A DNA stretch of 36,683 nt from positions 1-36,683 of the forward strand of contig JAUXGM010000002.1 in the NCBI GenBank assembly GCA_030622125.1, read 5' to 3'. Numbering within the stretch: position 1 is the first letter of the stretch; each line of letters starts with the position of its first letter. The position numbers were made by a program, and so were the translations under genes. Source of the stretch: a bacterium. Its GTDB lineage: Bacteria > AUK180. Positions 9,665-36,622 of the stretch are shown here, piece after piece. The notes under the pieces are model-generated. The model was given only the letters and a program-made list of their open reading frames with translations, searched no databases and was not told the origin of the DNA.

Positions 9665-9723
9665 ACTTGACGCCGATGCTATTGTTTTTTTTGTTTTTGG
9701 AGTTTAATATTATTTTTCTTACC

Positions 9724-9751
9724 AACCTCTAACCTCCAACCTCTAACCTCT
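9724..9751. repeat. Heptamer tandem array: AACCTCT AACCTCC AACCTCT AACCTCT
   Basis: Four contiguous 7-nt units, one mismatch. Confidence 0.9.
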
Positions 9752-9863: not shown

Positions 9864-9898
9864 AATTCTCAATTCTCAATTGTTAACTCTCAACTATT
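9864..9898. repeat. Heptamer tandem array: AATTCTC AATTCTC AATTGTT AACTCTC AACTATT
   Basis: Five contiguous degenerate 7-nt units. Confidence 0.85.
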
Positions 9899-10002: not shown

Positions 10003-10037
10003 GAGTTGTGAGTTGCGAGTTATGAGTTTCGAGTTCA
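10003..10037. repeat. Heptamer tandem array: GAGTTGT GAGTTGC GAGTTAT GAGTTTC GAGTTCA
   Basis: Five contiguous degenerate 7-nt units. Confidence 0.88.
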
Positions 10038-28450: not shown

Positions 28451-29827
28451 ATGATAAAAATTGTGGGTGTTAATCCTATTTATTCAAGTGAAGAGATATT
28501 AGAAATAGATAAAGTAGGTATCACTTTAAAAAATACAGACAAAAAAGGTACCGATGCAACGATTATTCTTGTTATCAGAGAGAAAAACGGACAGGATGTA
28601 TTAACACAGGATTTTGATTTATTTTTGGCTTCAAATAAGGTTAATGAATTTATTATTCCACTGGATATTCCCATCAATAGTAATTGGTCATGTGAAATCC
28701 GAATAATGATCCAGGTAAGTGGTAAGATCGTCGCCGAAAGTGAGTGGTATGATCTGATCCAGGGAGAGGAAACCGAAAAAGAGGAAGAAACAAAGCCATA
28801 TACGAGTGAGTTTTTAAAAGAAGAAGATACCGAAACCGAACTGGCAGCAGATGTAACTCCGGAGAGCTCCGAAAAAGAAGATTCTAAAAAAAGTTTTGAT
28901 GAGAAAGAGGATACCGAGGTTACAATTGTCGAGGATGAAAAAGAAAAAAAAATAACGTCATCATGGGGTATTTTGATTGAAGATGGTAAAAATGCAACTT
29001 TCGGGATAGAAGTAGAAAGTGATATAGTTCCGGAAGAGGAAGAAAAGATAGAGGATAGAGGCTCGAGGTTAGAGGTTAGTGAAGAAAAAGAAAAGAAAAA
29101 AGAGGATAGAGGCAATAAAAAGACAATGAATAGTGAAGAGTTAATAGTGAATAGTGAAGAGAAAAAAGAAAAAGAGGTTAAAAGCATGCCCAGCACCAAG
29201 ATGGTGCAGGGTGAAAGGTTAACGGTTAGTAAAGAAAAAGAAAAGAAAACAGAGGATAAAGGCTCAAGGTTAGAGGTTAGTGAAGAAAAGAAAAGGAAAA
29301 AAAAGAAAATAGAAATCGCTGAGAAAGTTGAGGAGGAGTTTACACAAACAGAAGCAGAAATTATAGTCAAAGATGCAAGCGAGAATGTTGTTTCGGATTT
29401 GAAACAAGATCAACAAAAGATGTTCCGTCAAAAGAAAAAACGATTTCCGGTTCTATTGATATTGATCTCAATCGTTGTAATCGGTGCTGTTGGGTATTAT
29501 TTTTTTATTGTAAAGGGAATTAAAATTCCATTTATCAACCGTGAAAAAACGGTCGATAAAACAAAAGAAACAGATATTAATGATCTACTTTCAACGGGAA
29601 AAGATGATCTACTGGTCATTGAAAAAAATTATATTGTTGAAACAGAAAAACTATCCGAAGATCAGCTTGGAAAGATAGAAAATCTTATAGAGAAATACAA
29701 TGGAAATCTTTTAGAAGTTGATGGGGGTTATAAAATGACCTTTAATTTCAAAAAGAAGGATAATGCAAATGAATTAAAAACTTTATTAGAGGAAAAAGAA
29801 ATAAAATGTACGATAAAGGAACAGTAA
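28451..29827 (+). CDS. Type II-like membrane protein: N-terminal beta domain, long charged linker, one TM, short C-terminal domain
   Basis: TM 'FPVLLILISIVVIGAVGYYFFIV'; low-complexity Glu/Lys linker containing nucleotide heptamer arrays. Confidence 0.75.
   Translation: MIKIVGVNPIYSSEEILEIDKVGITLKNTDKKGTDATIILVIREKNGQDVLTQDFDLFLASNKVNEFIIPLDIPINSNWSCEIRIMIQVSGKIVAESEWYDLIQGEETEKEEETKPYTSEFLKEEDTETELAADVTPESSEKEDSKKSFDEKEDTEVTIVEDEKEKKITSSWGILIEDGKNATFGIEVESDIVPEEEEKIEDRGSRLEVSEEKEKKKEDRGNKKTMNSEELIVNSEEKKEKEVKSMPSTKMVQGERLTVSKEKEKKTEDKGSRLEVSEEKKRKKKKIEIAEKVEEEFTQTEAEIIVKDASENVVSDLKQDQQKMFRQKKKRFPVLLILISIVVIGAVGYYFFIVKGIKIPFINREKTVDKTKETDINDLLSTGKDDLLVIEKNYIVETEKLSEDQLGKIENLIEKYNGNLLEVDGGYKMTFNFKKKDNANELKTLLEEKEIKCTIKEQ
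29065..29286 (+). repeat. Heptamer arrays and hairpin inside the CDS linker
   Basis: GAGGTTA GAGGTTA (29065-29078); GAATAGT GAAGAGT TAATAGT GAATAGT GAAGAGA (29128-29162); CCCaGCACC-aagat-GGTGCaGGG (29189-29211); second AGGTTAGAGGTTAGTGAAG (29267-29285). Confidence 0.85.
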
Positions 29828-36583: not shown

Positions 36584-36591
36584 GAATACAA

Positions 36592-36622
36592 TTGATAATG
36601 GACAATGGACAATTGACAATGA
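36592..36622. repeat. Heptamer tandem array: TTGATAA TGGACAA TGGACAA TTGACAA TGA
   Basis: Four contiguous degenerate 7-nt units plus a partial. Confidence 0.85.

Follow-up and report, generated by a model that had tools for sequence, protein, structure and literature searches.

Dispersed heptamer and palindromic repeats make up part of the disordered linker of a 458-residue protein and of the charged tails of other proteins in an AUK180 bacterium

The window (the whole stretch of DNA analysed, 36,683 nucleotides from a genome of the GTDB lineage Bacteria; AUK180) carries on its plus strand, at 28451 to 29827, a gene for a protein of 458 amino acids, whose orthologues in four genomes of the same family (G001 to G004; the genome of the window is G000) cover both ends. 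A single-sequence AF2 model predicts an N-terminal beta-sandwich (residues 1 to 103), a disordered charged linker (approximately 104 to 288, with pLDDT below 50 across residues 138 to 283), a transmembrane helix (approximately 331 to 354), and a C-terminal domain (392 to 457) in beta-alpha-beta-beta-alpha-beta order, which by this topology we take to be SPOR-like. A Pfam search with the protein gave no match. In Foldseek, its N-terminal part matched beta-sandwich domains of GH2 enzymes; we judged this match to be one of fold class only and set kinship with GH2 enzymes aside.

When positions 28940 to 29400 were compared by BLAST with other stretches of the same genome, nearly all of 29049 to 29290 (residues 198 to 285, approximately) turned out to be a mosaic, pieced together from three dispersed repeats of which one occurs twice; all four pieces are on the plus strand, and each is 86 to 97% identical over 37 to 72 nt to loci elsewhere in the genome. 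The first copy of repeat E1 (29049 to 29094) is an array of AGGTTAG-type heptamers (GAGGATA GAGGCTC GAGGTTA GAGGTTA GTGAAGA) read as EDRGSRLEVSEE, and it is 93% identical over 46 nt to contig C47, 97% over 37 nt to the gene for ribosomal protein bL17 in C110, and 97% over 36 nt to a non-coding site in C84. It includes GAGGTTAGAGGTTAG at 29065 to 29079, the 13-nt prefix of which is the exact reverse complement of 9739 to 9751, within a non-coding E1 copy in the same window (9722 to 9751, GAGGTTAGAGGTTGGAGGTTAGAGGTTGG on the minus strand). E2 (29096 to 29160, read as EDRGNKKTMNSEELIVNSEE) has a fixed leader, AGAGGATAGAGGCAATAAAAAGAC, and an ordered block of heptamers that begins at 29127 (TGAATAG, TGAAGAG, TTAATAG, TGAATAG, TGAAGAG). 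It is 94% identical over 65 nt to a copy within the bS16 gene of C49, and its 38-nt core has four copies in the genome at up to 3 mismatches. E3 (29167 to 29238, read as EVKSMPSTKMVQGERLTVS) is a palindromic element lying between AGGTTAG units, with 91% identity over 64 nt to a non-coding site in C136 and 86% over 72 nt to an open reading frame (ORF) of C44. Inside it, at 29189 to 29211, is the hairpin CCCAGCACCAAGATGGTGCAGGG (CCCAGCACC-AAGAT-GGTGCAGGG), and the 74-nt region around it folds as RNA at -19 kcal/mol (z = -4.7 against 200 shuffles). The second copy of E1 (29246 to 29289, read as EDKGSRLEVSEEK) contains a second AGGTTAGAGGTTAGTGAAG that begins at 29267, and it is 93% identical over 41 nt to the bL17 tail in C110, 100% over 22 nt to C136, and 100% over 21 nt to C49.

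A sequence-only reading of this DNA had named the 13-nt match, the heptamer run, the second AGGTTAGAGGTTAGTGAAG, and the hairpin, all of which are present, and had seen repeat material in a disordered linker whose frame was kept open, which is borne out over a wider extent (29049 to 29290). It had also taken EDRGSRLEVSEE to be partly duplicated as EDKGSRLEVSEE; both sequences are there, but a local duplication is not required, as these are two dispersed copies of E1. Elsewhere in the window, a fourth repeat, E4 (TIDNGQLTIDNE in other ORFs), has a non-coding copy of GACAATT/GACAATG heptamers on the plus strand at 36601 to 36622, and there are non-coding heptamer arrays of ATTCTCA (9864 to 9893), GAGTTAT/GAGTTGT (10003 to 10035), and ACAATGG (36588 to 36622).

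E1 and E2 are imperfect tandem heptamers with a period of 7, dispersed over the genome (2.08 Mb) and mostly non-coding. Genome-wide there are 150 matches to GAGGTTAGAGGTTAG at up to 1 mismatch and 52 to the TGAATAG pattern at up to 2 mismatches, with 0 for the reversed, composition-matched control in both cases, and the 23-nt hairpin core of E3 has 16 matches at up to 3 mismatches (reversed control, 0). Chance is excluded as the source of these matches. Even with 12 repeat-bearing ORFs masked, genomic stretches match 204 nt of the window gene, all in residues 198 to 280, while the reversed window gene matches 0 nt of them. The AGGTTAG family is common to the genomes of the family, with 150 copies in G000, 87 in G004, 76 in G001, 12 in G003, and 5 in G002; it is absent from two genomes of the same class and practically absent from about 90 others. 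An exact scan of a named genome collection for the E3 hairpin gave 0 matches, and no loci related to the host gene were found in that collection. Many contigs of G000 end within approximately 200 bases of a repeat copy (for example, C33, C36, C44, C52, C62, C67, C88, C92, C96, and C116), so the repeats probably fragment the assembly.

The four orthologous genes contain 0 nt of repeat DNA against the 204 nt of the window gene. Their proteins are 60 to 63% identical to that of the window over residues 1 to 100 and 35 to 53% over residues 326 to 458, but only 16 to 27% over residues 198 to 285, so that the outcome which the sequence-only reading had named against itself, orthologues conserving the amino acids of the linker, is absent. 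Counted from the SWG motif to the KKK before the transmembrane helix, the linker of the window protein has 157 aa, while those of its four orthologues have 119, 119, 179, and 188 aa. The expectation of repeat-free linkers of different length thus held. These linkers are not systematically shorter than that of the window protein, which speaks for turnover or replacement within an existing disordered linker rather than simple lengthening. The bL17 and bS16 proteins of G001, G002, and G004 likewise have C-terminal tails rich in K, E, A, and P, either charged or, as in bS16, rich in A, P, and E, with 0 nt of repeat DNA, so the tails are old and their repeat content is special to this genome. Among approximately 40 repeat sites sampled in G001 to G004, there is one convincing in-gene case, the few other long open frames being upstream or spurious. 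In this case (C71 of G001, L232:417-1937), an AGGTTAG array between the YDEFGN and YKYTGK motifs of an RHS-type core is read in its antisense frame, as LTSNLQPPTS. Another observation concerns G002, which belongs to another genus: the E2 core recurs in its non-coding DNA (C122, L204:1500-1540) with 1 mismatch in 38. Proteins of the two genomes are only 40 to 60% identical, so a match this close was not expected, and it may reflect recent exchange or strong conservation.

The sequence-only reading had proposed a search for other ORFs with such segments, and we found about 10 to 12 genes. The census covered 212 kb of G000 chosen around repeat sites, and ORFs were scored with a simple home-made codon model trained on the genes of the window. 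Out of 128 sites, 99 were non-coding by codon score and 29 fell in 11 ORFs; an ORF in C170 is the twelfth, with one further site. As C1/C47 and C36/C44 meet contig ends within repeats and each pair may be two parts of one gene, we infer 10 to 12 genes. All 29 in-ORF repeats are in sense orientation (two-sided p = 0.0005 for 12 of 12 ORFs and 0.002 for 10 of 10), although the antisense frames are likewise open at most of these sites. Each repeat family gives the same peptide at every occurrence (RLEVS, NSE(E/Q)LIVNSE, PSTNLV/PSTKMV, and DNGQLTID), and the encoded pieces are single, charged copies without a 25-residue period.

The hosts identified with Pfam are bL17, bS16, a protein with four S1 domains, a Roadblock/LC7 (Robl_LC7) protein, two TPR proteins, and a SPOR protein, and in all of them the repeats sit outside the Pfam domains. 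In bL17 (291 aa; L088:1354-2226 in C110), the Ribosomal_L17 domain occupies residues 19 to 115 and the repeats residues 128 to 250, the tail past residue 128 holding in frame E1, E3, E4, another repeat (TPSSHSEDLADYSNPDLKREES), and E3 again. In bS16 (250 aa; L090:739-1488 in C49), Ribosomal_S16 spans residues 9 to 67 and the tail holds E2, E4, and E1-like blocks (143 to 222). The ribosomal-S1-like protein (L101:3-2009 in C50) carries repeats after residue 509, past its four S1 domains. Last, a tail at L088:7757-8245 in C110 lies directly upstream of a gene with a SecY-like start and is, by gene order, probably that of uL15. As the contig ends within repeats, the tail lacks its uL15 domain. No uL15 turned up in the assembly, and it was presumably lost at a repeat-associated break. 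Palindromes lie inside heptamer arrays: E3 within E1, and a further one, CAGCACCTTTCCAAAGTGCTG (read as ITAPFQSAGQVV), which is nested within E2 in the S1-domain protein and in the probable uL15 tail.

Pure arrays of at least three AGGTTAG or TGAATAG units contain a stop in every frame. In the linker, every unit that would put a stop in frame is altered at that place, with GGCTCG or GGCTCA for GGTTAG, and TGAAGAG or TTAATAG for TGAATAG. These variants are also found in other repeat copies, so they need not have arisen in the host gene. Over stretches of 60 nt, all 6 E2 copies scored as coding had an open sense frame, as did 1 of the 13 scored as non-coding. The one exception is C170, whose short ORF is packed tightly between two others, and its copy is better read as coding, in a probable operon gene, which makes the counts 7 of 7 and 0 of 12 (Fisher p = 2e-5). 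As a location in an ORF demands an open frame, this comparison reveals a distinguishable subset and not by itself selection. The 3' flank of E1 is TGAAGA (the GTGAAGA unit) in 7 of 7 ORF copies and in 10 of 62 others (Fisher p = 2e-5); most non-coding E1 copies run on into another conserved sequence, such as TTAAAAACAATATT. The in-ORF copies are thus a distinguishable subset of the repeats. E4 was dropped as a marker of coding and non-coding copies, since a register shift of the same array yields the same peptide.

We consider it most likely, at roughly 80%, that the dispersed repeats spread through this genome by a duplicative process and are retained in disordered, charged protein segments where they are in sense orientation and free of stops. 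The linker is built from copies of the heptamer arrays E1 and E2 and of the E3 palindrome lodged between E1 units, and these copies would have arisen through recombination, through template switching, or as products of non-autonomous transposition. A copy that fell in a folded domain or out of frame would be lost, and those in linkers or C-terminal tails that were already disordered and charged would survive if they lay in sense without in-frame stops. Unit variants that form stops are missing from the ORF copies, and K/E-rich flanks join one copy to the next. The outcome would be that repeat DNA, presumably translated and close to neutral, turns over the sequence of the linker with little effect on the folded domains.

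The syntenic stretch C40/C35 of G001 and G004 offered no clean empty site (one E1 site is shared, and one stretch could not be aligned), and the C39/C34 pair of these genomes did not align; as no pair of empty and filled sites was found, insertion as an event is something that we infer. No terminal inverted repeats were seen by eye across the repeat blocks, and neither a mobilizing enzyme nor a target duplication was identified for the repeats. The genome has four Y1-transposase (IS200/REP-type) genes (L253, L254, L255, and L256, in C73, C140, C141, and C172), apparently single, amid housekeeping genes, and possibly domesticated or REP associated. The loci of approximately 3.3 kb around them contain no repeat copy, bar isolated matches to short motifs, and because no copy adjoins them, we do not assign RAYT mobilization of the repeats to these enzymes.

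The direction of spread, from non-coding to coding DNA or from one coding site to another, is unproven. The sequence-only reading had non-coding repeats colonizing the linker; the repeats are indeed there, but their non-coding origin is unproven, as the in-ORF copies can be told apart from the rest and may have been copied from one ORF to another. With odds somewhat short of even, a coding-adapted sub-lineage could copy itself mainly between K/E-rich linkers, with low-complexity AAAGAAAAG tracts as the partners in gene conversion or recombination, the non-coding copies being separate or derived. The E2 core argues for such a route, as it is identical in bS16 (C49) and C170 and 1 to 2 nt off in C1 and C58, and all four of its own-genome matches are in ORFs; the GTGAAGA flank shared by the ORF copies of E1 and a longer flanking segment that C44 and C47 have in common point the same way. 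However, units of the ORF type also occur in non-coding copies, namely, GAGGATAGAGGCTCGAGGTTAGAGGTTAGTAAAGAG in C84, E3 in C136, and E2 in G002 with 1 of 38 positions mismatched. Since gene-to-gene copying of the stop-free subset, a serious alternative, is compatible with the duplicative spread proposed above, the two are not exclusive. A bolder version, which we hold more tentatively still, would have two forms of the repeats, one containing stops and non-coding, the other stop free, compatible in charge, and multiplying from gene to gene via disordered tails, including ribosomal ones. If true, this stop-free form would remodel many proteins at once, essential ribosomal proteins among them.

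The remaining alternatives would do without a spread of this kind or give the repeats another role. Codon-level expansion of K/E-rich linkers, with the repeat match as a by-product of A/G-rich composition, would agree with the repeat-free tails and linkers of the same kind in all orthologues, and the short AAAGAAAAG tracts are driven by composition; but the reversed window gene gives 0 nt, as do orthologue linkers of similar composition. Matches of up to 65 nt at 94% identity occur, and the hairpin, which is not of low complexity, recurs in 16 places. Such an origin is already refuted for the blocks E1 to E3, is left only for the AAAGAAAAG joints, and is the least probable of the readings. Hardly more probable is that draft contigs were misjoined at dispersed repeats, which would place repeats in genes as an artifact. 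The assembly does have 192 contigs, with many repeat copies at their ends and uL15 lost at such a break, yet in each of four genomes the two halves of the window gene align, in order and in frame, with a single orthologous gene, and random chimeras would break frames rather than leave approximately 10 to 12 genes open with all copies in sense. It is unlikely, if less so, that the repeats are kept in ORFs for a function in DNA or RNA (mRNA structure, a protein-binding site, or DNA architecture) with the peptide incidental. The hairpin folds better than its shuffles, and for heptamer repeats elsewhere a role as regulatory or quadruplex sites has been suggested (PMC4679880, PMC4692102). Against this, the copies have no constant position, some lying far within unrelated genes and others at gene ends, and their units deviate exactly at would-be in-frame stops.

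With the duplicative spread of repeats into disordered segments as the preferred reading, this genome offers a clear bacterial example of disordered regions whose sequence, in many unrelated genes, comes from short dispersed repeats; the genes of core ribosomal proteins are among them. Sister genera have these tails in repeat-free form, which allows a direct comparison of raw material and outcome. The case bears on the turnover of disordered linkers, on the survival of small repeats in gene-dense genomes, and on the reasons for the abundance of heptamer repeats, and gene callers will take such repeat-derived segments for ordinary protein.

Several known systems share parts of this picture. In concept, the closest are the Rickettsia palindromic elements (RPEs), single stem-loop elements of 105 to 146 bp that are dispersed and mostly intergenic but also occur in conserved protein genes, in frame, at solvent-exposed sites and without breaking the protein; a count from 2000 gives 19 reading frames (PMC2229807, PMC3767692). 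The copies described here are also both intergenic and in frame (99 of 128 sites non-coding, 29 in 11 ORFs, some with Pfam domains and some without). They are, however, 37 to 72 nt long, heptamer based, and composite, with a hairpin (23 nt) only in E3; a single linker holds several families one after another, and the host sites are disordered, charged tails, those of ribosomal proteins among them. The likeness to RPEs drawn by the sequence-only reading therefore stands as a concept, but given their different size and structure, these elements are not RPEs.

In unit length and stop-avoiding orientation, the nearest parallel is the TAACTGA heptamers of Beggiatoaceae, cyanobacteria, and some Bacteroidetes, which form abundant dispersed arrays, most of them upstream of start codons (PMC4679880). 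Some of these lie in ORFs, mostly at protein edges and oriented so as to avoid stops, pure arrays reading LSVISYQ (PMC4679880). The units here are instead AGGTTAG-, TGAATAG-, and GACAATT-like, and TAACTGA arrays have no nested palindrome. The STRR and heptamer SSRs of cyanobacteria and other bacteria (GGGGA(C/T)T in Nostoc, GGGAATC in Xanthomonas) are under-represented in coding DNA (PMC4692102); they resemble ours as imperfect heptanucleotide arrays found over the whole genome, chiefly in non-coding DNA, but here a distinct stop-free subset forms part of several genes. The enterobacterial RU-1, RU-2, and RU-3 and the Correia elements of 107 and 155 bp are small repeats whose open frames have been fused into genes (PMC2759123, PMC2229807), and the Correia pair has a stop-free intragenic form and a stop-rich intergenic one (PMC2229807), a split that parallels the one seen here. 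Those elements, however, are MITEs of 100 to 170 bp that carry terminal inverted repeats and target duplications, and neither turned up for the repeats of this genome. A limited literature search gave no description of composite heptamer-palindrome repeats as tails of ribosomal proteins. The palindromic amphipathic repeat coding elements (PARCELs), a mobile repeat DNA, encode protein segments in the form of 25-residue tandem domains of surface proteins (PMC2996958). The repeats of this genome likewise include palindromic DNA that codes for protein segments, but as single copies of mixed families in disordered tails.
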